Below, in pieces: positions 6,247 to 64,000 of a DNA stretch of 64,000 nucleotides. Positions within the stretch are counted from its first letter, which is position 1, and each line of letters opens with the position of its first letter. Made by a program: the position numbers and the translations under genes. This DNA is from Siniperca chuatsi (taxonomy: Eukaryota; Chordata; Actinopteri; Centrarchiformes; Sinipercidae). Below the pieces are notes generated by a model, which did no database searches, was not told the origin of the DNA, and saw only the letters and a list, made by a program, of their open reading frames with translations. The DNA lies in assembly GCF_020085105.1 (NCBI RefSeq), contig NC_058059.1, positions 18,727,042-18,791,041 on the forward strand, written 5' to 3'.

Positions 6247-12600
<6,354 letters not shown>

Positions 12601-24980: not shown

Positions 24981-26897
24981 CATCTACCTAATAAAGTCAA
25001 TGTTGTATTGACAAAGTTTTTTCAAGTAATACAGGTTCAACTGTTTTGCAGGACACTGACAACATGGAAAAAACAAATAAACGAAATAAAATATCTTGCT
25101 AAGAATAGTACTATAAATTACATAAAAAGACGTTACCTTCCGTAAAACAACACAATACAATGAAGTTGTTCTTTATACTACAAGTGTTGCTGGAGTTTGG
25201 ACGCTTCCAAATGATCCTTACAATAACATGAAACAAGCTCACCTGCTGGGACATTTTCCCAGTTGATCCTGACATACTGGTCCCTGTCATTCCCAGTATG
25301 CTCATGGTGGAAGCAAAGCGCATGGAGGAGCTCATGCTGGATGATCCCGTGCTCGAGACTGCTATACACAGACAGAGAAACCACCTGCGTCCCTCCATCT
25401 CTGCCAATAATAGACCAGCACCTACAGTACAGTAAAAGACAGAGAGACAGGTTTGGATCCTGGCAGGCTGGTGTATGCACTCCGCACTCACCCGAGTTCA
25501 CTCTCAATGCAGAGGTAGTCAGACTGGCCGTGATAAGGAACGAAGCGAATGCAGGTTTTCTTGTGGAAAGTTTCCATAGCTCACTCAGTTGACTTACTGT
25601 CATCTGCAATAAAATTGACATCAGAATACATGATGCAAACATTGTTAAACAAAAAAGTCTGAGGTTTCTTTCTTTTTTTGTTCTAAGGTTTTGTAAGTGT
25701 AAATGGAAAATTGTCATGCTCACTTCCTTTCTACATGTCTGAAAACAGTTAATGCTACTTAAAGTAGCAGTTGAAACTGCATGAAAGTACTTCCTGAAGA
25801 TGAAATGATTAAGCTTGTACTGATTGTAATTCTCATGAATGAATTCCTCAGCCTTTACAGAAGTAATCACTGAGGCTGCAGGGTACATCAACCAGTCCAT
25901 GGTAGGATTTTTTCCACTTGCAGTAGTTGCTCCAGCATTTCACGGCATTTCTCTTCTTTGAAAGAGCGACATAACCTTCCACCAGCATATGATTGATGCC
26001 TGGGGTAAGACAATACATGGGCAGCACGCTAAAGAGATGCACAGCTTCACACTTGGAATATGAGCAGGCGAGGACACAGTATTGACATTTTTCCCTGAAC
26101 AAAGTGTACTTTTATTGGCGTGCAGAATTTTTGAAGTTGTGTCTAAACAGTAAGACTCCTTGGTCTTCACACCTAATAATTGATGACTCAGTTACCAAAC
26201 ATGAAGACCCATTGTGCAATAAGATGCGTAGAACACCTGTGGTGAGAAAAGTGGTACCTTCCTCATGAGGTCGCACCTGCAGAGACACAAAGTGAGCAAT
26301 ATTTGTACAAGATTATGTCACTTTTATTATGTGCTTATTGTGTGGTTTGATTGCCATCTAATGTCTTTTTCCTGTTTGTTTACATTCATCTTTGTGTGCT
26401 GATAATATTTCATGACTCCAGTCAAAAGCCAACTTATCATTTCAAAATGCACACGTGTTAGTCTAAAAAACACTCCCTGCTATAAACAGATTTTTGGGAG
26501 ATGTTGTCATTCCCTGGTAGTTGTTAGAATCACTTAAGTGGGCCCATGGGCTCATAAAGCCATAAATGGCCTTTTAGGAGGTTTTTGTTAAAATAGGTGA
26601 GAATGAGTTCGGGTCATCGGTTTCATTGAGTTCCCAGCTCTGGATGCTTGGAGCAATCTGCAATTTGATCAAGATGTTATCACTTGTCTCACTTTTGATT
26701 AACTTTCTTTGAACATGATAACATTTAAACATGAACAAAACAAGTAAACCAGTTAAAAAAAGAGGTGCATTTGTCTCACCAGGGAATTGTTTTGAGCTGA
26801 AAGGCCCAGCAGCAAGGCCAGGACTGCAGAGAAAAGGATGGAGAAGCTTGGGAAGATTTTTGCTGGCCAGCAGTGACCGCAAAGGTTGCAGTCTTGC

Positions 26898-31900: not shown

Positions 31901-34900
31901 TCCTGGGGATCGTTCTCTATCTGTCGGATGAACATACAAGAAAAATATAATAATATAAGCATCTATCATAAATCCTTGTTCTAATAGATTAACTGGTGAA
32001 ACGACTTTTCTTGCCCTAAAAAGATGTTGCATAGCCAAAAAGTAATCTTCCCCCAAATTATTAATATTTCTTGTATGTAGCTGTGTAACATACAATACAT
32101 TGAATAAGCAAACCTTTTTGCAAAATGAACCCCAATTGGGTGACCTCCAGTGATGGAAGAATCCTTTATTTTAGTAAAAGTACTAATACCACATTGTGAA
32201 AAGTAAAAGTCATGCATTAAAAACCTTACTTAAGTAAAAATTTGTAAGTATTTGCAGCAAAATTTACTTAAAGTATCAAAACTAAAAGTACAGAAAATGG
32301 TCTCTGTCAGTGTTTTACTTTTATATCTGATGTTTCTGGATTAATATTACTGCTGCATTAATGTGTATGTTGCATTTTACTGCAGTAGTTGTTGAAATAC
32401 TTTATAAGCCGTTGGGTAGTTTAATCTACAGCAATGACATAAACAAACATATGATCTATGAAATCAAATTCAAATTCACCAAATTTGGAGATACGTGGTT
32501 TTTGCTGGACAGGGTGGGTATGAAAAATTGTAATCTGAAAAGTAACTAAAGCTGTCAGACAAATGTAGTGGAGTAAAACGTACAGTATTTGTCTCTGAGA
32601 TGTAGTGGAGTAAAACGTACAGTATTTGTCTCTGAGATGTAGTGGAGTAGAAGTATAAAGTAGCATTTACTCTCGTAAAGTAAAAGTACCCTGAATTTGT
32701 ATTTAAGTACAGTGAGTAAAAATATTTAGTTGCATTCCACCACTGGTGACCTCTAAGTTATGTTGTGCTGATTAATCCTGTCAGAGCTTGTTTTGGAAAA
32801 ATGATCACCTCCCTGCAGCTTTCAGTGCTTAATACACACTGTGTAATTTTTTCATTTCATAAACAGTCAAATAAATATCACACATTACATACAGGGTTCA
32901 ATCCTGTGAATGTCTAATTATGAGAAAGTCAATCTGAGTGAGTTTAAACTAGATATAATCCTGATTTACTACACCACCACTGTGATTGATATTTGTGCCC
33001 TTATTTTTTTTTTTTTTTACATCACTGTGATTTCTCCTGCAGTTTGAAGAATGTGTACAAACGCTCACCTTGAACTTGTTTAGTAGCTGTTCAATGACCT
33101 GGTTTGTGGTCAACCTGCTGGAGATACGAACTTTAGTTGGGGTACCGAAGGACGGAGTGAAGATAGAGGTCTGTAGAAGACAATGAGAGACTGATGAGCT
33201 ACAGTACAGCTGGGAGTGAGGGAAAAGAGATACTTATGGAAAGGGAGGGGAGAGATGAGCTCGACAGGAAGAGAATTTTAAAAGAGAGATGAGGAAACCT
33301 ACCTTGTAGTTATAAAAGTGTCCATTGATAGAAAAGCGATGTTGCCTTTCTTTCTCTCTTTGCTCTGCTGACTTGCCCCTACCCCTCCTCCTCTTGACCA
33401 ATGAGGCGTCACTCATACAGCGAAACAGGTTGGACTCTGCCTCCAGCTCTGAGTTCTTCCGCCTCATAGGACGCAGCGTGGTCGTCTCATAAACAACTGG
33501 GCCTTTGGAGTGTGCAGAAACACACGCATAAAATGTCTCATATTCAACATTTGGTGTGAATAACACCAATATATTACATTATATACTATACTATACATTA
33601 TGTTTTCTTGTTTTGTGTTTGTGCAACCAAACAGCGAAATCAGTCATAATTTTGTAATCAGAATGAGGTTTGATTACAATCTATGAATTGATTGTGTGCC
33701 CTTGAAATAATCTACACAATATGCTGCAATGTAATTCAAAAGTGAGAACTTTGAAGATAGCATTGTTGTGGAAACATTATGGAGATACGGGAGGAAAATA
33801 AAAACCAGCCTGGTAAAGGATTGTTGACCACTGTGTCCTGTGCAGTCTCAGCCATCTCATCTATCTGGTGAAGGTCAACATATTCTCCCCATCGTGTCAT
33901 ACCCCTGCAGAGAAGAGAGGAAATGATCTCAGAGACTTAAAATTACAGATTACCTGCACGTAGAAATGAACATCAGTTACGTTTTACATACTTTAATCTT
34001 GAATCATGAAACATTAGATTCACACAACTGAACTTGAGGATACTCAGTCTTGCTCATGTGGAGAGCTGTACTACCTGGATTATGGGTTGTTCAGATGTCA
34101 GCATGACGCCTCTACTGTGGTCACTACACTTTACAGGTGGTCAATCAACAGTTACGTCGAATCCCAAAGCTCATTCTTGGGTTCTCCATGAGAGGGAATT
34201 TGAATAATAATGGCCGGTAATGTTGGCAAATACAAAATGAATTGCTCATTTATGACCACCTTTGTACCCCAATATCTGTAGAAAGGTGCTTTTGTTAGCC
34301 TTAACCTTTTAAAAGTCAACTGTTTAGGTATTACCTTGTCAAGGTTGGTTAATGAAAAGCTCCTAATATAACCTATCCCCTTTTAAACTGAATATATTAC
34401 CAATCCTACTGATCATAGATCATCATTTTTAGGCCAATATTTGTTGGTGTACTATTCTTTGTCCGGTTTTAAATGGTCAAACAAAGATGACGTAACATCA
34501 CGTTGCGACGATTCCATCTGCAAGAAGGATATCTGGCAAAAAGAGGTACGAGGCTCATCGGCAGATAAGCTTGGGCTTGTGAATGCAAAGGCTCCAAAGC
34601 TCTTCGCATTTTGCTCTGTGCTGTTGACATATTAGTAATATGGTGCAAAAGCTGAAAACAACCTCTTGTTTCCGAGCGGGCTGACAGGACTGGTGGGGTC
34701 AGATGAGATCGGAGGAGCAATGGGAATCAGCTGTTTATCGTCCTGTATTTTCAGCCTGATGGGTCTCCGCACTCCCCAGGAGATGTTCAGGAAGCCTTCC
34801 ACCACCACCTCTCCATCACCACCCTGTTACAGAGACAGACCCAGAGACACCTGTACGGTGTATAATTACAGTCGGACATTCAATTAACATACCACTTTAT

Positions 34901-45600: not shown

Positions 45601-48600
45601 AATGGCTAATTCACTTGTTGGCTATAATATCTGAGGATTTTTCTAGAGGATTTCTAGACCTAAACACATTGGTAAAGTGCACCAAACTAGCAAAAAGGAA
45701 CAGTTTTCAGAGTTTCCTGCACTCTAGCAACTTAATATTTTTATGTTCTGAAGTGGACACACACATACTAAGTAAATAAGGAAAGCTAGTGATAATGAAA
45801 GGCAGTTGGATCAAGTAGGTTTTTGTAATACGTACAGTAGAGACCAGATGGGACCACTGTAACTGGCCTCCTCTGAGGGCCTTGACAGCACTGTATCACT
45901 TCTGGTGTCCAAACAGCATTTCATAACAAGAACCTCTCGCAAGGTCAAATCCGGAGAGGCCCTCTTTTGCTCTAAATAGTGAGTCATGTGGTTAAACATG
46001 AGCCACAGTGAAACGGTCACTCTTCAGATTTTATCCATCTGGTCAGACATAATATTGGCAATAGCAAGAGTAACATGGTGGGGAAAAACATTCTGCAACA
46101 AACCCATTCAAAAACCAAACCTCTACATAACATGCTGCACATACAATCTACATTATTATTGAATTTGTGTAAGTATTTTCTGACTGAACTCTATCTGTAA
46201 GCCATGATAGCAACAACATCAGCAAAATGTGTGGTAAAACTTGCACACAAAGAAAAATTTTAGTCAAATTTTCATGTAAATATTGAAGTGTGCCACACTT
46301 TCAAAACCACGTTTGATGGAACATGACTGAGTCTACAGCCATGCTAGCAGCTCTGTGAGGCTGTACTTAGGCAAAGCTTTGCTTTGAGCGAAATGCTAAC
46401 ATCAACGCTAAAATGCTGGTGATGACCAAGTATAATGTTTACCATGTTCACCATCTTAGCTTAGCATATTAACATGTAAATTTGCTAATTAGCACTGAAC
46501 ACAAAGTAAAGCTGAGGCTGATGGGAATTTCATTATAGTTTATAGTATTTGCAAGTATTTGGTCATAAACCAAAGTATTGGATAGATTAAAGTTCTGACC
46601 TGAAGATGGTGCTAAGTGAAAAGTCAGAGGATCACCTTAATTGAAATTCATCCTGAGGGGAACATAAATAGAAATCCATGCAATAGTTGTTAAGACATTT
46701 CACAAAACAAATGTGAACCTCATGGTGAGATATTGCACCTTACTTTGACCTTGGCTAAAATTGCATCCTACTGTTTAAAACCAAGGTTGGACCTCGTGTC
46801 AGGGTTTCAGTTTGATTTACAGTAACTTTCTTTCCATCAGCCCTGTTCATGAGTCAAACAGCAGCAGTGACCTGGTTGGGGGTGGGGATGTGGGGTACTT
46901 TTTCCAGCTATGTTATTGTGAAATCTTTATTTCACAAGAGACAAAGCAAGCATAATGTCCTTTTAACCCTGATCTTTTCCTTTATTCTCCTTTCTTTTTC
47001 TTCTTCACTTTCCTCTCCATTCATTTCCCCTCCTCTTTTCGTTCCTTTTCTTCACCGCTCTGTTTTCTATTCTGCCTCTTCCTCTCCTTAGTTCATATAA
47101 AGTTTAAAGCAACCTTGATGTCTCTGATCTGAATCCACACATAAACAGTTGCTGTCTCACCCCTGTGCTACTACTGTCTTCTTCCATCCCTTTTCCCTTT
47201 CAACATGTCTATTCTTTTTTTTACTCCCCCTCTCATTTTCTCCTCCTCAATATATTCACCCAGAGTAAAACAATAAATAAATATCAGACTACCTTACTAA
47301 TACTGAGTTGCTTTCTTTTTTACCCTTGTCTCACTTGTCTGAAAACAGTCCCTCTTCTGCTTTTTCCTACAACTCCCTTTCATGAGTGAAGCTGACTTTA
47401 TGGATGAGATAAATATTGATCACATCTTTACTCTGGATTCAGCTGGTTTATATCATGAAAAAGAACAGGTGGTTCTAATAATTTGAATATTCAGTTTACA
47501 CAGAACTGTTCATTTACCCACTTTCCTTTTAACAAAGACCATCTGTTGAAACGATATAGTGGAGAACAATGTGTGCACTAGGGATGGAGCCTATCCTTGA
47601 ACCTTAAATTAAAATGACTTAAATTAGAATTCTTCAACTTCTGCTTGAAAAAAAGAAGTAAAGCTATAACAAACCTCAAAACTTCAGATCAAGTTCGTGT
47701 CTTTCCTTCTCTGTCATCCTATCTTCCTTCTAATCCTTTTCTTCTTCTTCTCTATCTCAGTACTTTAAATAAAGTTGCAAAATCCCAAATGCTTCAGATG
47801 TAATTTGTAATAAACAGACTTCTCTCCCCCTCAAGGTCACTGTTATTCTGCTCTACTCAGGTCAAAGCTGTAACAAACCCCAAAACCTCTGATCTGGTCC
47901 CATTAGTCAACAGTCAGGTCTGGACGCTGAGTGACTGAAACCGATGACTCAATCTAAAACAGGAATGCTAAAAATGTCAAATAATTAGCAGCTGTTTATA
48001 CTTCCCTCAATAAGACTGCAATTGATTAGAAATAAACAACAGTGATTCAGCTCAATGGCACATTCAGTGCCAATGCATGATGAAGTGTGATGGATGTGTA
48101 CAGTCCACGTGTCCCTTTTTCCAAATACTGTTATGGATTTCATGTTTTTTTCATATGTTCACCACCTAGCGCCTAGTATCATCACCTTATTAGAGACAGT
48201 GGATGTTCTACTGGATCACAATGCCACCTTCATCTGTGAGGTGGAGTCCCGTCCCCCCGCTGAAATCACTTGGACCAAGAATAACCAGCCAATAATGTAA
48301 GTTTACACCTAAACCTCTTTCAACTACAGCATTCAGCAACTAATCTAGCTAGGAATCTACTCTTGCAGGTTCATTAAGGAATATACCAAGCTTCAAATGA
48401 TAATCTGTGAAATACATGTTTATATTTTTATTTTGGCTACATATATATTTGATACAAAATGCTTTCCCACTCAGTTATGACACATAATGGTTCCAAAAAA
48501 CGTGTCAATCAAATTTTGTGGGTAATAGCCTTCTGTGATGTCTTTTTTTTTGTTGTGAGTTTTCTGATGATGAAATTTGAGTTTCTTTAGATGGTGCTTT

Positions 48601-51600
48601 TTGTCTCCTCGGCCCTGATTTCCATCATTGCTATCAGCTGTAAAATATGTCTGTATTAGCTGCTAAACTTTGCCATTAAAGGCTAACCTTAAAATGGCTA
48701 AGTAGCTGCTACATTTAGCCATCGCAAGGCTATGGTTAAGTGATAAAAAGTCAGTAACAATGGCTTCTAATTACTGTATGGCCTTACAAGGCTAACATAG
48801 GCAAAACATTATTTAATATCTGTACCATTAGCTTCTAACGTAAGCCGTCACAAGGCTGCAAAAATGATATAAGATTAGCTGTTTATATTCTTAAAATGTT
48901 AGTAACGTCAACATTAGCTACTCTTGGCTAACACTAGCAAAAAAGGGAAAAAAGATTGCAAGGCTAAGATTGAAATAATATGATACAATGTTAGTAACAT
49001 TATGGCTATTACAAGGCTAAAATTGTCAAAACAAAGTAAAAAATTAGCTGCAAACAAGAAATTAGTTGCTTATTTTGGCCAGCAAAAGGCTAACATTAAA
49101 GCAATTTTATGTTAGTGATGTCAGCATTAGCTACTATTGGCGAACACTGACAAAAAATGATAAAATAACACTAGCAGCTAATTGCAAGACCAAAATTAAA
49201 ATAATTTGGTATAATGTTTGGCCATCACAGTGCTAACATTTGCAAGTATAAAAGATAAAAAACGCCAGCAAACATTGGTAGTCACATACATGACATATTT
49301 CAAACATATATAGATTGTTCCATGTTAGATTCATATTGGACATTTGTCTAAAGAGTATATTTCTGAAGCTCTTAAGATTTCAAGAAAATTAAAAAGAATG
49401 GTAAGTCCATCGGTCCCTTCTGCTTACAATCAGACTCTTCTTTGCTTCGCACTCTCCTTTTTTCCCACCAGGTACTATGACCCCCGGTACATTACCAGGG
49501 AACAGGGACAGATGCTAATTATCCCTCATGTAAGAGAGTCAGACAATGGAGAGTACTGTTGCCTCGCCAGTAACGGCATTGGAGAGCCAGCCAAGAGCTG
49601 TGGAGCGCTGCAGCTAAAGATGAGTATGTCTGCTTTCTTCCAAGGTTGTAGGGCTGGAGTCTAGTCAATCTTGATCTCAAATCCAGGTTTTTTAAAGAAT
49701 TTGCAGTTGCTACAGTTCCATTAAGAACAACAAACTCATAGTAGTATTGAGACAAAAGGCTTAATCATTGCATCTTGTCTCTCTTGTCTTGTCTGTCTCA
49801 CCATCAGAGCCACAGATCAAACGCCATCCTACCAATGTAACCCTTCTGGTAGAATCCAAAGCAGTGTTGCCCTGTGTTACCCTCGGCAACCCCAAACCAG
49901 ATGTGACCTGGCTCAAAGATGATGAGCTTATCAAGGTATGCAGTTAGTTCACTTCAAAACATTTAACAACAACGGGAAGTTGGAGGATGTTTTCCAACTA
50001 CATGAGACATTTCACTGATTTAGCTTTAGTTAGATAATCATTGTCTGAGAGTATAGTGCAGTGTTTGCATCTGTCTGACCAGGACTGGGAATGGGTGCAG
50101 ACTGCAAAGGTATCCAGACTGTATATTAGCATAAAAGAGCTCAAATGCACTATTGTTTTGGTATGGTTTCGAGTTTCCCATATCATTAGATAAAAAATAA
50201 TATTTTACTAATGTTAAAAAATCTATTATATCTTTAAAACAAACAAAAGAATGGGAACAAATCGTCTCATTTCTCCCAGGTCAGTGACCGTGTTACCATT
50301 CTTGACTATGGTGCGTTGAAGATCCATAACATACAGAAGGAGGATGCAGGACAGTATCGCTGTGTGGCCAGGAATAGCTTTGGTTTGGCCTTTTCAAAGC
50401 CTGTCACCATAGAGGTACAGGGTATGTATTTAAATGTGGTTTCACTTTCTATGCTTAGTATGTGCATATGAACTTAAAAAAACTGTAATTCAAAACAAAC
50501 AGTGGAAAATAATAGTTTGGTCGCTGTATATGTATATGAGTGTATGTGTCTACACTGTGTGTCTGTGTGTGTTCAGCTCCAGCACGAATCCTGCGGGTTC
50601 CTAAGGAGAAGAGAGTAGCCTATGGCAGCCAGATTTCCATGGAGTGCAATGCCACAGGAAATCCAATCCCCACCATCACCTGGCTGGAAAATGGGAATAC
50701 TGTGAGTGTTCAGGTTCAGTGTGTGTTTGTGTGTATGGTTTGACCAATATGGGTTTCTAAATGGTCCTTTATTGATGCTGATATTTTTTCTTTTGAATTA
50801 ATTCTATCTCCATAAATGTATCCCTATCAGGATCAAACAGCATCTAAAACACTAAAGCTCTCCACTGAATTTTTGCAATCAAATCCAAAGTAATAACATC
50901 TATCCATCCATGTCCATGCCCGGTCCCCTCAGTCTCTTGTGAATGCTTGTGATCTCTCCAGGAATATTCTTGTCTCCATCACAGTGGTAGAGTTTGGCTC
51001 AAATGTCAGTCAACACAGCCAGCATCAGAGAAATTGTATCACGTAGCTGACATTGTGACACATTGTCAGCTGCAGAGCCTTACATAATGGGAAAGCTGCA
51101 ACAATAACAGAGTAGATAGTCAAGAAAGCCAACATGCCTCACAATCACATTAAGTTTTAGTTATGAAACCTTCATCTTCACATACATCTGAGATTAAACT
51201 ACATTGAAGTGCTCTAAAGAATACAATTGTACTAGCTAATATATTTAGTAGATTAACTGCTAATCCCTGCAACCTGCACATTAGCATTTTCTACTGTGTC
51301 AAATTAGCAGCAAACAACTACCTAGCTAGCTGGCAAATCCAAAGAACAGACAGAACCATTTACTGCGTCAACCTACTGTACATTTGGAAACAAATACATT
51401 ACTTATTCAGTACCAGTTCTCCAGTGGATCTCTTGTTTGTGTCAGACATACAGTGGCTGCACATCCCCAATTGGTCTATAATGTCTGTGTATCCCATTCG
51501 GTTTGGTCTAAAGAAGCAACATGCGCTGTTCTTGTTGTGGTTTAAGCTAAATGATGTTCTTCTCTTTTGAGACACCTGTCACTGCACGGCTCTGCATGGC

Positions 51601-52869
51601 AACAGTGGTGTTACTGACATACTGTCTGTCTGCTGTCCATGTGGCTTGATCAACAAAACAATTAACATAAAAACACAGAAGCAAATTACTTTATAGTAAT
51701 GTAGTCATGTGCATGAGCAAGGGCAAATAAGGAAACCAGGACACTAGGAACACAACTTCACACACACATACAGTATACTGTAATGCAAACATACAAGAAA
51801 TTAACCACAAATCCCTCGCTCTCTGTCTCCCTGAATGTCTCTCTCTGATTCTGTCTCTCTCCTTCACTCATACACACAGACACACACTGCCAATGCTCTC
51901 AAAGAGTGGCTGTGGGATCAGTGATATAAACAGCAATGGAATTCTCATTATGGTGAGAGAGGATTGAAGAGATTGCCTTCCATTTAGCCAATGATACACA
52001 GTGTTATCAGCTTTAACTGCGCTGTCTTTTTTAAGGGAGCATGCACAAAGGTTCTTAAGGTGTTGAATGGTTTGTGCTAACTGCTGACCTGTGATCCAAA
52101 GATTCTGGCTCGAGATGTTGACAGCCAAGCCATGTAAAGCGAGTTTCACCAGTTATATAGCTGTTACACAGGGCTGATGCGTATAGAGATCATAAAAAGA
52201 AAGATAACTATAGGAGATATAAAGGTACCTGCTGATGAATATTTTATACAAGCAACATAACTGAAACCGATTTTGTGACCCAGAGTGCCATGTGTCCAAT
52301 TGTAATGATGCATGCGTTGTAGTAGTAACCACATGTGATGATTTTTGGGACAGCAGGAGAAGACATTATTCATGACTCATGCCAAGTGCAAACAGTTTTT
52401 TTTTTTCTCCGAAAGTGCGATTATGTAACTTAAGTAAAACACCAGGACACTTCCTCATAAAAAACTATACCTAATAATACCTAATTGGCTATTGAACTGT
52501 ATTATTATGTTGTTTTTTTAAATCGTGGACGTAACATTACATACCTGACCACTTTAAGAATGTTAAACAGGACGTTTTTTTTCAACCAGCATTTTTTATC
52601 CGTGCCATTGCGGGCAGACATACACACATAATGTCTGGCTATTTAATAGTCTTGGGTGCTACAATGTGATTACAGGCCCATAATGCTTGTAAATTCTATA
52701 TGTGTGTGTGTGCATGCTGATTAAAATGACTGTGTGAGCTGCTTTTCTGGCAGCTTGTTGAGGCCATTAATTTCAGCGGAGCCAGATCGAGCTTGTCCTA
52801 AAAACAGACGGTGTCAGACACAACTTCAAATATAGACGCGTTGCACATCAGCACCCTGACTCACCCACT

Positions 52870-52900
<31 letters not shown>

Positions 52901-55900
52901 GACTCGCACATTTATCATTTATATACATGTAAGTGTGAATACAGTAATTAAATACAACAAACACTGGCTACATCTGCCCCGTGTGAATACCAGGGAATTT
53001 TTAAATCTTCTAAATGATTACAAGTGGTTATATTAATGCGAGTCACATAGTGTAGGCACTATTATCCACTCAACACCCATGAGACTATAATATAAACAGT
53101 GTATGAACACTTTCGACATTAAATCTAAACATTTTTAATTTTATGATGGAAGTTTGGAAGGATACATTTTACCATTTGCATAACCTGTTCTACTCACTCT
53201 GCTGCAAAATGTTTTTACACAACTCAATAGCATTTTCAGATTGCTGTACGTCATTAAAGTACCAAAGTGACAAAAAAAGAGAAAACTCACGAAACCTTCC
53301 CCTTTTGGTTGACAACTCAATTTTGCATTACCGCCATCATCTGGTAAGGAGTGGGTTTAAATGGATAGACTGTCACTCTGCATGATCTCAAAGGGTAAAG
53401 CTCAGTTCTATTGCTCTAAGTCTCTGTAATCTGAAAGCCTAACACATAATCATTCTGGGACAAAAATGCTTTGATTCAGCACTCTCATCAACCCTGTTTC
53501 CCGCTGCAGCAGGCACTTGTTTTCATTTAAAAAAAAAAGCTCTCAAAACCCATTGTATACTACCTACCCAGCACAACAGACAGACAAAGTTAGCAGCTAG
53601 CTGGTGAACATAGTGGAGCAGATAGCAGCTAAAGAGACAGATTATCCCTCAGGAGTTGGTAGAAACCAAACCAGGGCTAAAAAGACAGTGAATATTAGAC
53701 TTAAGGTGGCAAGAAACACAACTCCAAATGAATGCTATTGTTGCTCTGTGTCTCTTGCCATAACAACTTTAGAAGATAATACAGCATGGCGATGTTGTGC
53801 TTTCAGGCTGTTCTGCTGCCCTCAAGTGGACAAAAACAAATCTATCTCTCTTTAATGAAAGGGGGCCTAATTTTAATCTTCTAAGGCAATATAATGATGG
53901 CATATATTTTTAAGTGTAATTTGTCCTTGCATGATGACATATTTCTGCTATCTTTTTCTTTTCTATTAATGTTTTTTTTTTGTTCCAGATCTCAGGTGCA
54001 TCGGTCGAAGAGACTTTGACAGGAGAGGTGATCCTGTCCGTTCTTAAAGTGACGGTGAATAAGCCGGCTCTCTACACATGTCTGGCCTCCAACAGACACA
54101 GTGCTGGAGCCAACACTGTCAAGGCAACTGCTAAAGTCACTGTTGCAGGTAGTGACACGTTTTCATTTCCATTCAACACTAATGTCAATGGGTGGAAAAA
54201 CAAATAGATCCTCTTACTCTTACGTCTGTGGCTGTTAGGGGGTTGTTACTGCTTTGTCTTCAGTTATGTTAGCTGCCAGTTATATTAGTTGTGTTTTGTG
54301 TGGCTTCAGCTGTTTGTTAACCCCCCATTTGGTTGATACCTCAACCACACTTGCGCACACACCCCACGACCACAGTCACCTAAAAAAACACACTCACACA
54401 CATCCCCTCCTCCCGGACCACACACACTGCCCTTCCACCTGGTTGTCCCTGAGTTTAATCACAGCTAGATATGAGTTGGTGAGAGAAGCACCATGGTTGG
54501 TTTTCTCTTACTACTGAGACTGATTTTTGTCCTTTTTCCTTCTCTCATCTGTCTGCCTCCTCTCTTCTCCCCTTTCCTCCTACTTGTGTTTCTTCAACCG
54601 ACGTCTTCTGGATATTGTCACTTCCCCATAGAATGGAGGTAAGAGAAATGGTCTGTGCCTTACTGTATTTTTCTATGCTATTTTTCATGAGTTTATAAAA
54701 AGGTGTTTCAGCCAAGTTGAACCACCTTGAATCATAAAAATTACACAGCACATTGCCTGTCACTAAATTTTATATGGGAAGCATAACCATATGTGTTTGC
54801 ACCGTTTGAAGAGACTAAGTGCTGTTGCTTCCGTTGGGTCTACTGAAGACAATATGCATTTTAGCTCAATAAAACTACGATGCCAAGAGGGCATCGATTC
54901 TCTTGGCCTCTCAGTCACCCATATGGTGTGAGTTGAATTTGAACTTTGCTGAACCACAACACAACCCCAGTTACCACATCTGGGCTATGTAACTGCAGAA
55001 ATGAAGAACTGTGGATTGCAGGTCACAGACAGACAAAATAATCAGGCTTAATGGTTAGATCTTACATGATTTGCCAACTTATGACCACATCTGGACCATT
55101 TATTTATAGGATGTAGAAGCAGAGAGACAGTCATAGAGAGAAAGTAAAGGAGCATGATGGGGTTGATCGATTTACAGGTCAACTTTAAGTTTGATGGTTT
55201 TACTTGAACTCTGCCGAAGCACCAACCTCCCTGAGAGGCAACATCTGGAGTTTGTAAGTGTTTGCCGCATACAGACAGGCAGAAAGAAACGTGGAGTGAA
55301 GGCTGTCAGACAGACAGGCAGGCAGGCAGAAAGACCATGGATGTGAGACAGACAGAAAGAAATGTGCATGTCCATGCTGAAAGACGAACAGACATAAGAG
55401 CAGGCAGACAGAGTGCGAAACAGATAGGCAGGGACACAAAGAGTCCAGGTACACAGACTGTTGATCTGTTCAATCTAGAGGCAGCAAGGAAGTCCAACAG
55501 GCAGACAGGATGTAATTTCATATGAACCTTCCACAACCGGTTTCATGATCAACATCTGGATGATGTTAAAGAAGATATTTCAGTTCATACAAGTAGAGCA
55601 TTTCTTATTGTTTTTGTAGTGCACATACCTCCATACAAGTTCACTAACTGTCAGCCACAGCAGTAAAAGACTGATTGCTCTGGGGACCTATAGTTGGCAT
55701 CTAGCATCCATCCAGGCAATAGTATAACAGATGAAGGGCAGTGCCATGGTTAACTTTCTTCCATGTGTTTCGAGAGGTGCCTACTGTAAATGTACATTGC
55801 TAACATGCATTGCCATTTCGAGTACTCCTGGGTAAAAGTAGGAGCAGAACAAGTGGTCTAAATATAAATCTAAATATAAATTTCCACCTTGAAAACTGAA

Positions 55901-58796
55901 GTTAATCAATTTAATAACTAACTTAATAACTGATCTGATTAATAAAGCCATTTCCCATTCCTATTTCCATTTTTCAAGATTTTGGAAATGCCAGTAAGGT
56001 CTATGCATTGTAATTTGACTTTGTCCAGATCTAGTTTATATATATTGCTAATGTCAACTAACACGTACAAATTATACTGTATCTCCTAATTGCCCGCGTG
56101 GTTTCCTCCCATAGTCTAAAGAAACACAGGTTAGCTTAATTGGTGACTCATGATGTGTGTGTGAATTGTTTTCTGTTTGTGTGTGTCAGCGCTGTGATCG
56201 ACGGGTGGCCTGTCCAGGGTATACGCAGGTTATAACCCATTGTTATCTGGGCTCCAGTCCGCCTGCAACCCTGCAGTGGATGAGAGGGTTCAGATAATGG
56301 ATAGATGAACATGTCTTCCTTATAAAAGGATTGTCATACCTGCTTATCCTTCACACAATTAATTAGCTATGCAGAAATACTTAGTTATTTACTCCACTTA
56401 CAGTACTAAGGTAATATCACTTGAATTATACTATACCATACTTTTCTTAGAGAATGACTGTTAGCTGAAGGATGCTCATCTTTGTCTTTTGGAGGACTTT
56501 TTAGGACTTAAAAAGCATTGCAGCTGTAGCAATGGAATACGGAGGGGTAGACAGAAAGACAGGCTGATATACAAAAAAAGGAATTAAAGATACATGTGCA
56601 TTTTGAACTCCCTTTAGTAATGGGTCAAGCAGTCAGATCTTATAGGTGTGGATATTTATGTGTGTCTTCTTCACGCAGACTCTACAAGGGCATTACAGGC
56701 TACTGCAGTGCGTATCGTGGAGACGTGTGCCGCACCATTCTGCGAGATGATTTGCTGGTCTTCTTTAACTCCTCGCTCTCGGACCCCGAGGACATGCAGG
56801 AGTACCTGGTTCAGAGCTGGTGGACGGAGCTGGAAGGACTCAGTGTGCTGTGTAGCCCTGCAGTACGCTCACTGCTCTGCCACTCCTCCTTCCCTGACTG
56901 TAACCCATCAGGGTTAGGACCGGCACCTAAACCTGTCTGCAGGTAGAATATGTGTGGCTGAATTTAATAAAAGACGATGATGGAGTGGATACATTTAGAA
57001 AGTAAATTAATAAAATAATGAATCACTGACTGAATGAATGAATGGAGCATCATCATGTTTTTTTTTCTTTATAAAACAGAGAACACTGCCTGGCAGTGAA
57101 GGAGCTGTACTGCCATAAGGAGTGGTTGGTCCTTGAGGGCAGCAGTTCAGTCCAGCCTGGCCTCTTCAGCTCTGTCACTGGGTCCCACACTCCCAGTTCA
57201 CTGCTGCCCAACTGTCAGGCCTTACCAAGTCTTCGCACAGACCCTGATGCTTGTACACACGTCCCTTTTGTAGGTAAGAAAAACGAAAAACAAGCATATA
57301 ATCCAAAATGGTTTATATGCATGAGTTTGCATACAGCTCACAGTATGCAGTGTTACAGAAGAACGAGAAGAACAACAAAAGACTAATTAACACACTGAAT
57401 TCAAGATCAAATTGACTTTTTTATTTTAACTGCTTTGCTAGAATCTGCTAAATCTAACTAAATCTAAATCTATTTGTTAAGTCTGTGCTGCAGAAACAGC
57501 TTGAGCAGAGCATAAAAGCAGAAAGGAAATGGAGCGTTATGTAAAAGAAAAGCAGGAGTTGGCTGGGTGCAGTTACTCGTATGCTGATGGCCAAATAAAG
57601 CCTGGCCTGCTAGACTGCAGGTCACAGATACTGATGAGGTCATTAAGAAGGTCTGACTAGCTGAGCCAAAATATACAGCTGCAGTTGTGTGTGACTTGTG
57701 TGTGTGGTGTATGGTTTATAGTCTCTAGGCACAGTAAGTGTGTATGTTTGCTCTAAGAATCTTAACTGTACTCAATTGACCTTCAGATTACTTAATAGCT
57801 GTGCTTCCTCTTAATATTTAAGTTTTTCATCTGTTCTTTTCTGCATTTCAGACATCAAGAGAGATCAAATTACAAGTAAGTGTGAAAAGCGTTTAAGTGC
57901 AACACAAATGTATGTATCCAGTCATCAGAATTAATCTCACACAGAAATTAATTAATAATTTGTTAGACAGTAATTGTTCAAAATAATTTATTAATACTAT
58001 CTCCATACTGTTTGGTATCAACAGCAACATGTTACGATGACAGAGGCCGTTTCTACCAAGGCAGTGCAAATGTGACGAGGTCTGGGATACCTTGTCAGTC
58101 TTGGAGCCAACAGGTATTTTGGTGGTTTGTGTGTATGTGTGTGTAGATGTTTCCACAATGTCACACCACTACACAATATGTGGAACATATAAACCTAAAT
58201 ACAACAAAAATATCAGTGCAGATACAGAGGGTGGGGTCCAAAAAGACAGAATTTGTTTAATAATTGCAATTTTTATTCATGGGAATGTCCTCATGCAGAG
58301 GAACAAAATATTTATTTTGTTGTATGTTTAAAACTATGGCTTCATAATGGCTTCTTAATGACCATCTAATCACAATCACCACAGAATAAAGATGGAAGAA
58401 GTTAAAAGAATATCAGGGAATTGTTGAACAGTGTTGATAACATGTCTAGGTGTTGACAGCAAGTCCGCCAACACTACTAATGCCTGTATTTATAATAAGT
58501 TTAAGAGTCTAAAGTTTCCCACATATTTAAACCAGTAAATGATTGAAGTGTGACTGATATTTTGTGTATGGATGTTCAGTTTTATATCAAACGTTCCTGA
58601 CCTCTAACCAGAAACTGAAAAACACACAAAAGTGCTTACAAGTGCAAACACAAGCGCACACACATACACACACATATACACACACACACACACGTGCTCA
58701 CACTAACGCACACATTCCCTGTGGCCCAAAAGCCTCTTTATGTTTTTATGGCTTTGCTCAGTGAGAGGGTTTGTTAGGGTGAACTGTTACTACTCT

Positions 58797-61800: not shown

Positions 61801-63374
61801 GCACTCCAGATTGAAGAAACAACTCTGCAACCCCTAATGTTGCTCACTATAGTACATTTTACACCCTCTGCAGTTATTAAACTGCAACCTTATCATAGAC
61901 CCTAAACAGGGCTTTGAAAAATTATTGGAAGGGCATTCTTATTTTCGTTTTTGATGAAGAGAAATTCATTGATCAGATCTTACTGAAAACAAGTCTGTTT
62001 TCTCTTTACCCCTCTCTGGAGCATAGGGTCAGCAACAGAACAGAACAAATAATGTTTTACTCAAAAACACCTCCGGACGCACAGGCTAGATCCCAGATAT
62101 TCTCACCACTTTAGGGAGTAGAAATAGCAAACAGCAAAATTCTGACAGGACATGATGTAAAAGGCTCCTTTCCAAAATGCTCCAATTGTTAAGAGCACGC
62201 AACCTCCCCTGTTCCTTTTGTAGCTGGTTCTGTACTGATAATTACTTTTTGATAATACTTTATAGCTTTGTTGAGAAAAGGTCAGCAAAACTCCTCTGTA
62301 CTGTTCTGTCTTGTCCTTTAGGTTCCCCACCAGCACCGCCTGTCTGTGGACGTGATTCCAGAGCTGAAGAACTCAGACAACAACTGTAGGAACCCGGGAG
62401 GAATCAGTGACAAGCCCTGGTGTTTCACCTTAAATCCCAACATACGCTGGGAGTACTGCGCTGTGCCGCAGTGTGGGGAGACGAGCATGGTATCAGGTAC
62501 TGCCTTCTGCTGTTCTCTGACCCTTGTTCAGTTTACAGCTGTTGCTAGTTCCTGGCTCTCTCACCGGAAAACCCACTCGTCACAGAGAATGTGCATACTA
62601 CTTCACCAGTTAGCAGCTAATGCGCGACTGTAGATTAGCCCACCAGCCACAGTCAAGACATTTACTGTAGACACTGTCCCCTCAACATTTTTTCCAATGA
62701 CACCCGCTGGGCTCCATATTAATATATAATAAATTATAAATAAATAATAATATATAATAAACAAATATATAAATGCTTGGCTTTAGTGAGACTTTCCAGT
62801 ACTGATAAAATAATAGAGACTTTTTTCATTTAAAATATCTTCATTTCCAGTTTAAAGGAGCACACTGACAGCATAGCACATTTATTTTAACTGTCTCTGT
62901 GTCTGTCAGTGATGAAGGCAGAGTCACCAGGCCCTCGTCAGACTCCTCGTCTCCCTCCCACGACCACGGTATCATCTCCAGCTTACTCCATGTCCGTCAT
63001 CGTCATCATCCTGACTGCACTTGCAGCTGCAGTCTTCCTCACCATCATCATCCTCGCCTGCCGCAGACGGAGGAAGCAGTGGCGAAACCGGAAGAGGTGA
63101 GATACAGACAAGATGCACACTTTTCTTTATTTATCTGTGTGTCCACCTTTCTATTCCTCACTCCCTCTCTCTCTCTCCGCAGAGCGATGGAGACCCCGAC
63201 GATGAGCACTCTTCCATCGGAGCTCCTGCTGGATCGACTCCACCCCAACCCCATGTACCAGCGGGTTCCCCTGCTGCTGAACTCAAAGCTGCTGGCGCTA
63301 GAGTATCCCAGAAATAATATCCAATATGTTAGAGATATTGGAGAGGGAGCCTTTGGACGGGTTTTCCAAGCCAG
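42642..63374 (+). CDS. musk: Muscle-specific receptor tyrosine kinase MuSK, N-terminal 682 residues (kinase cut by window end)
   Basis: Fifteen exons join in phase: 42642-42723, 48170-48296, 49472-49623, 49808-49935, 50280-50421, 50577-50701, 53989-54148, 54632-54638, 56679-56942, 57080-57273, 57852-57875, 58025-58113, 62322-62496, 62910-63096 and 63183-63374. Domains: signal peptide (1-25), Ig1 (30-120), Ig2 (121-210), Ig3 (212-304), Frizzled-like cysteine-rich domain (312-460), kringle (471-552), transmembrane helix (583-607) followed by RRRRKQW, juxtamembrane NPMY (Tyr 644) and the kinase glycine loop GEGAFG (672-677). MuSK at the neuromuscular junction is activated by agrin through LRP4; the NPxY tyrosine recruits DOK7. 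Mammalian MuSK lacks the kringle; fish, frog, chicken and Torpedo forms have it. The last donor (GCCAG|GTGACA) leaves the reading frame open, so the remaining kinase exons lie beyond 64000. The start codon has A at -3. Confidence 0.96.
42724..48169 (+). other. MUSK intron 1
   Basis: The intron is 5.4 kb with donor AGAG|GTACAT and acceptor CACCTAG|CG. It holds repeat family B copy 2 (46430-46735) and a repeat-like stretch at 44240-44515 ending AATGTTGAACTATTGCTTTAA, a common teleost repeat end. Pyrimidine-rich tracts lie at 46975-47090. No extra coding exon was recognised, and the phases of exons 1 and 2 match directly. Confidence 0.6.
46430..46735 (+). repeat. Dispersed repeat family B, copy 2
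   Basis: It contains CACCATCTTAGCTTAGCATA, TTTGCTAATTAGCACTGAAC, GGTCATAAACCAAAGTATTG, TCAGAGGATCACC, ATTCATCCTGAGGGGAAC and ATCCATGCAATAGTTGTTAA. The order matches the shorter copy at 21640-21960. Confidence 0.6.
48600..49270. repeat. Degenerate array of GCTAAC/ATTAGC motifs in MUSK intron 2
   Basis: Units such as GCTAACATTAGC, TTAGCTACTCTTGGCTAACA and TTAGCTACTATTGGCGAACA recur many times, spaced irregularly by about 40-200 bp, with AAAATGATAAAA-like linkers. It appears to be an old, diverged tandem array. It codes for nothing. Confidence 0.5.
50702..53988 (+). other. MUSK intron 6
   Basis: The intron is 3.3 kb and splits Ig3 between WLENGNT and ISGASVEE. It contains repeat family A copy 3 (53480-53765), a (CA)n run at 52869-52896 and no recognised coding exon. 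Confidence 0.7.
53480..53765 (+). repeat. Dispersed repeat family A, copy 3
   Basis: It shares ACAGACAGACAAAGTTAGCA, AGCTGGTGAACATAGTGGAG, CTCAGGAGTTGGTAGAAACC, CTCCAAATGAATGC and a GTTGCTCTGTGTCT end with the copies at 16420-16892 and 24590-24980. It ends about 220 bp before the MUSK exon at 53989. Confidence 0.75.
54632..54638 (+). other. musk: MUSK 7-nt microexon
   Basis: The sequence CTTCCCCATAG|AATGGAG|GTAAGA has a pyrimidine-rich acceptor and a strong donor around seven bases. It enters in phase 1 and leaves in phase 2. It supplies Glu-Trp and two bases of an Arg, linking Ig3 (...VTVA) to the Frizzled-like domain (LYKGITGYC). Mammalian MuSK has Glu-Trp at the same place. Confidence 0.88.
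54639..56678 (+). other. MUSK intron 8 with a GACAGGCA-rich patch and a dispersed repeat
   Basis: At 55260-55510 the text is rich in GACAGGCAG/AGACAGAC motifs, which produce meaningless Cys/Ser frames on the minus strand. At 56095-56300 the text GTGGTTTCCTCCCATAGTCT, ACACAGGTTAGCTTAATTGG, GGTGGCCTGTCCAGGGTATA and GGGCTCCAGTCCGCCTGCAA matches a repeat that is very widespread in fish genomes; its class is not assigned here. Confidence 0.6.
57852..57875 (+). other. musk: MUSK 24-nt exon
   Basis: The sequence TTTCAG|ACATCAAG...ACAA|GTAAGT encodes DIKRDQIT-like residues between the Frizzled-like domain and the kringle. It is phase 1 at both ends and has good splice sites, so it could be skipped or included without a frameshift. 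Confidence 0.8.
58025..62496 (+). other. musk: MUSK kringle exons (58025-58113 and 62322-62496)
   Basis: Together these two exons encode one kringle with six cysteines: TCYDDRG, PCQSW, NNCRNP, KPWCF, YCAV and PQC. They are separated by a 4.2-kb intron. The pair starts and ends in phase 1, so the whole module can be removed in frame. Confidence 0.9.
58114..62321 (+). other. MUSK intron within the kringle
   Basis: The intron is 4.2 kb with donor CAACAG|GTATTT and acceptor CCTTTAG|GTTCCC. It holds a (CA)n run near 58656-58692, a (GT)n run at 58803-58843 and a stretch near 61480-61560 (TTAACCATGACCACGGTCTT) that recurs widely in fish genomes. No coding exon was recognised. Confidence 0.65.
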
Positions 63375-64000
63375 GTGACAGGGGGAGATCAAGGAAAAGG
63401 GGAGCAAAGGGGAAATGGATGTAGACTATAACTAACTATATGTATACACACTGGGCAATAAAAGGAGAGAAGAAGGAATAAAGTTAGAAAATGATAAGGA
63501 GAGAGAAGGAGAGGTTGAGGAGCCTTCCACCCCAAACGGGAGAAAGACTTTACAAAGAGGGATATTTGTTTGCAATATTAGATTACTCAGACTAATATTT
63601 AATATTGCCATGTCATCATCATGATCGCTGCCAGGGGCTAACATGATGATGTGGTTATTTCTCAGGCAGAGGAAGAGAAAGGGGTCAGACAGGATTCAGG
63701 GGATAGAGTGGCTAAACAAGGCCGCTGGTCATTCTGAGAACTGCTGTGTCATTCACAAAGTTACAAGGAGAGCTGCTACAGGTGTCACTTTCACTCCACA
63801 CTGACCCCCTGTTCACGTTAAGACACGAATGTCTCAGACTAATCCCTGTGATCAGACTAAATACCAGACCTGGGTCATATAGTAGTTGCATTTATAAAAT
63901 GTCATAAATCTATAAAAAATCTGAACACTTATTTATGAAACACTGTCAACAACAATTTTATCAACAGGCAAATCTAGATTTTAGGCTTGAAAGGTGGCTG
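63375..64000 (+). other. Start of the MUSK intron after the glycine-loop exon
   Basis: This begins with GTGACA and is purine-rich near 63395-63520. No further kinase exon appears before the window ends. Confidence 0.7.

Follow-up and report, generated by a model that had tools for sequence, protein, structure and literature searches.

Human MUSK has a 7 base pair (bp) coding microexon, the closest known parallel to the element considered here: in the available parts of their paper, Koh et al. 2023 (PMC9929638) report that it shows high homology across species, is constitutively included in human and mouse cells and was not skipped in the cells tested. Here we analyze a 64,000-nucleotide stretch of the genome of the fish Siniperca chuatsi (contig NC_058059.1, positions 18,727,042 to 18,791,041; hereafter, the window), in which the seven bases AATGGAG lie between the exons for the third immunoglobulin domain (Ig3) and for the Frizzled domain (Fz) of MUSK. 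We argue that AATGGAG is very probably a constitutive coding microexon of this gene and, most likely, the counterpart of the published human one. As far as the available text goes, the two have in common the gene, the length, the coding character and a size that is not a multiple of three, whereas the S. chuatsi genome has its own introns.

The 4 bp microexon of MPC1, described in the same paper (PMC9929638, available parts), is likewise constitutive and very short, with a size not divisible by three, and 67 bp of upstream intron are important for it; it belongs, however, to another gene, and a short MPC1 fragment sufficed for its inclusion whereas a human MUSK fragment did not. The C6 box exon of human MUSK (2014 work, as cited in the accessible passages of PMC4564764 and PMC10968960) similarly involves a splicing choice in the Frizzled region but is a different exon, which both citing papers call unique to humans. 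Fish MuSK itself has functional splice isoforms, namely, FL and SV1 of zebrafish unplugged/MuSK (PMC2809748), but no link to a microexon is seen in the accessible text of that paper, the main text of which uses the word "exon" 0 times. MUSK, for its part, occurs 0 times in the main text of PMC13247117, which dates from 2026 and deals with non-triplet splicing. The microexon is, most likely, already known and a piece of ordinary gene structure rather than a newly found switch; what the window adds is the finding of the microexon in S. chuatsi and of the pyrimidine tract that precedes it.

Seven bases between Ig3 and the Frizzled domain

AATGGAG is bounded by an acceptor AG at 54630-54631 and by a donor GTAAGA from 54639, as read directly from the letters of positions 54620-54650, which are, in succession, ACTTCCCCATAG, AATGGAG and GTAAGAGAAATG. 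Together with the leftover base of the preceding exon and the first base of the following one (Table 1), the seven bases make nine across the junction (1+7+1 = 9), and these read GAA TGG AGA, that is, Glu-Trp-Arg. Like the MUSK microexon of 7 bp, AATGGAG is 7 nucleotides (nt) long and coding, and its skipping breaks the frame. The exon is real, and the coordinates and flanking exon phases given for it in an initial annotation of this DNA are borne out by the AG/GT flanks and by the count of nine.

The gene model into which the microexon fits spans 48170 to 57273 and consists of nine consecutive exons, the phases of which agree and the joined product of which comprises 432 residues without a stop. 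The best match in PDB is human MuSK (8s9p_C), residues 28-452 of which align with model residues 1-431 (488.6 bits, E 1.8e-145). In the 432-residue model, Pfam recognizes three I-set stretches and Fz (4.8e-14), so that the product shows the three Ig domains followed by a Frizzled-like domain that mark a MUSK orthologue, collinear with MuSK. At the junction itself, both the model and human MuSK (8s9p_C, and also 9lgg_A) carry AEW; the human letters are ISIAEWSKPQKDNKGYC, with Glu-Trp placed by the alignment as in the fish model. Further downstream, a human query sequence gave transmembrane and juxtamembrane matches at 62945-63097 and 63007-63384, with no kinase-domain match of note inside the window.

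Splice sites were scored with approximate, unfitted weight matrices. On this scale, the microexon donor (6.27) is the strongest among the nine exons and belongs to the top 0.18% of the 3918 GTs in the window. We then enumerated mini-exons, namely, AG..GT-bounded segments of a bridging length (1 mod 3, 28 nt at most) in which neither score falls below that of the microexon. AATGGAG is the only such mini-exon in the intron 54149-56678 and, indeed, on the whole forward strand of the window, the reverse strand holding one. Among 2000 random introns matched in first-order composition, 12 contained such a mini-exon (mean 0.006; for a length of exactly 7, mean 0.0005). When both thresholds are lowered by 4 bits, two more candidates of bridging length appear in the intron, at 56404-56410 and 56618-56645. 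The match of Glu-Trp to human MuSK is a support that does not depend on this chance test. The sequence and its frames are directly established, as are the protein-level match to human MuSK and the absence of any other candidate as strong.

A gene model lacking AATGGAG would interrupt MUSK, or join it wrongly, between Ig3 and Fz, which makes the microexon worth annotating. The two residues common to fish and human suggest that a frame-critical microexon has been retained since their common ancestor, and such an exon would be useful for studying how the spliceosome recognizes exons so short.

Table 1. Coordinates of the microexon and associated features in the window
Feature	Position	Strand	Remarks
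MUSK exon, second half of Ig3 (exon 7 of the initial annotation)	53989..54148	+	one leftover codon base (G); aligned to human MuSK
AG-free pyrimidine-rich stretch before microexon acceptor	54519..54629	+	111 nt; 80% C/T in last 100 nt before exon
7-nt microexon AATGGAG	54632..54638	+	completes Glu-Trp and gives two bases of next codon; Glu-Trp also in human MuSK
First Frizzled exon	56679..56942	+	opens with last base of codon (A)
Weak in-frame alternative acceptor	AG 56697..56698 (exon start 56699)	+	score -1.40; VTVAGYC; nine residues fewer
TAG reached on microexon skipping	56915..56917	+	frame translation
Second Frizzled exon	57080..57273	+	joined model, human MuSK alignment

Possible bypass and skipping of the microexon

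The initial annotation held the microexon to be obligatory for the MUSK frame, with only these seven bases able to bridge it. We tried single junctions that join an exon end at 54040-54399 to an exon start at 56400-56799; among the pairs tried, 73 kept the frame without the microexon. Thus, the word "only" was too strong and the microexon is not obligatory in the strict sense, but it is so by the best splice sites: the best of the 73 reaches a summed score of 2.3 bits, and all of them score under both junctions made with the microexon (4.8 and 11.6 bits). Besides the alternative acceptor listed in Table 1, examples include a donor at 54191 (-3.05) and an acceptor at 56618 (-0.32).

Several points weigh against a constitutive microexon equivalent to the human one. 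Despite their low scores, the bypass junctions may see minor use, since two true exons of the same model, both for Ig1, carry sites nearly as weak, namely, acceptor 48170 (-1.02) and donor 49623 (-2.09), the weakest of their kind among the nine exons and weaker than those of the microexon. The splice sites of the microexon had been called strong, which is correct for the donor but not for the acceptor: at 2.67, it ranks only sixth of nine exons and falls within the top 4.4% of the 4144 AGs in the window. A HeLa reporter with a 418 bp fragment of human MUSK was, according to the available text of PMC9929638, significantly skipped. Finally, identity with the human exon would follow from gene, length, frame and residues rather than from the human exon borders.

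An mRNA in which a stop lies well upstream of later junctions is, by the usual rule, subject to decay. Skipping of AATGGAG yields 79 shifted residues and then a TAG, confirming the stop that had been predicted near 56917. From this TAG, 25 nt remain to the end of its own exon and 219 nt to that of the next, and at least two junctions lie downstream. Since the stop precedes later junctions (219 nt to the farther one), decay of the skipped mRNA is to be expected and would be likelier than a secreted protein, so that the truncated, secreted Ig-only product envisaged earlier gives way to decay as the default expectation. Only for MPC1 do the available parts of PMC9929638 describe a test under blocked decay, so that skipped MUSK mRNA may have been removed by decay.

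Among the departures from constitutive inclusion, regulated skipping or bypass in this lineage, at some stage or in some tissue, by which the amount of receptor would be tuned through decay or a receptor lacking nine residues of the Ig3-Fz linker would be made via the AG at 56697-56698, appears quite improbable. Less probable still is a regulated switch, in which tissue- or stage-specific skipping would either lower the amount of receptor by decay or release a truncated secreted Ig-only protein. Such a switch could draw on the shift of the frame to the TAG, on the skipping in HeLa and the authors' suggestion of a possible role for tissue-specific proteins (PMC9929638, available parts), and on six TCTT/CTCT matches in 100 nt of the pyrimidine tract, a possible repressor site; it is, however, opposed by the position of the stop relative to the exon ends, with decay expected, by the lack of skipping in the cells of Koh et al. 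and by the literature examined on such isoforms, in the accessible parts of which no soluble or secreted MuSK form was seen. Hence, of the earlier interpretation, the need for the microexon by the best sites and the end of the skipped frame stand, and the on/off switch between receptor and soluble ectodomain does not; such a role, if true, would be of consequence at the neuromuscular synapse, yet it finds no support in the present analysis. The least probable alternative, that AATGGAG is no exon and the frame is bridged through acceptor 56699, donor 54191, acceptor 56618 or some exon of more than 28 nt, can point to the 73 in-frame junctions and to true exons with sites about as weak, but is countered by the lower summed scores of all 73 and by their loss, by construction, of the microexon and thereby of the codons for the Glu-Trp found also in human MuSK.

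As a constitutive microexon, AATGGAG would link Ig3 in frame to the Frizzled domain, contributing Glu-Trp to the linker. Its inclusion in S. chuatsi would be nearly constant, and skipped mRNA would probably be degraded without giving rise to a useful soluble protein.

The upstream intron and other features of the window

The tract before the microexon acceptor ranks first among the nine exons both in AG-free length and in pyrimidine content, and the values given in Table 1 are reached by 0.41% (AG-free length) and 0.27% (pyrimidine content) of the AGs in the window. Such a tract may help the spliceosome to find so short an exon; for the MPC1 microexon, the available text describes a long 3' recognition region, with which the MUSK tract would be consistent. 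The UGC close upstream of the acceptor that characterizes neuronal microexons of the SRRM3/4 type is lacking: no TGC is present in the 40 nt upstream of the microexon, which is weak evidence, as seven of the nine exons, the microexon included, lack TGC. No clear regulator emerges from counts of other motifs, the intron containing one TGCATG, at 55365, and three copies of ACTAAC.

Elsewhere in the window, upstream of MUSK, an open frame on the reverse strand (25181-25939) matches Pfam Astacin (PF01400, 9.2e-19) with its residues 171-235 and, judging from this match, belongs to a gene or pseudogene for an astacin-type metalloprotease. The window also contains a perfect CT dinucleotide repeat of 191 bases (8911-9101) and 2.4 perfect tandem copies of a 37-base unit (32563-32649).
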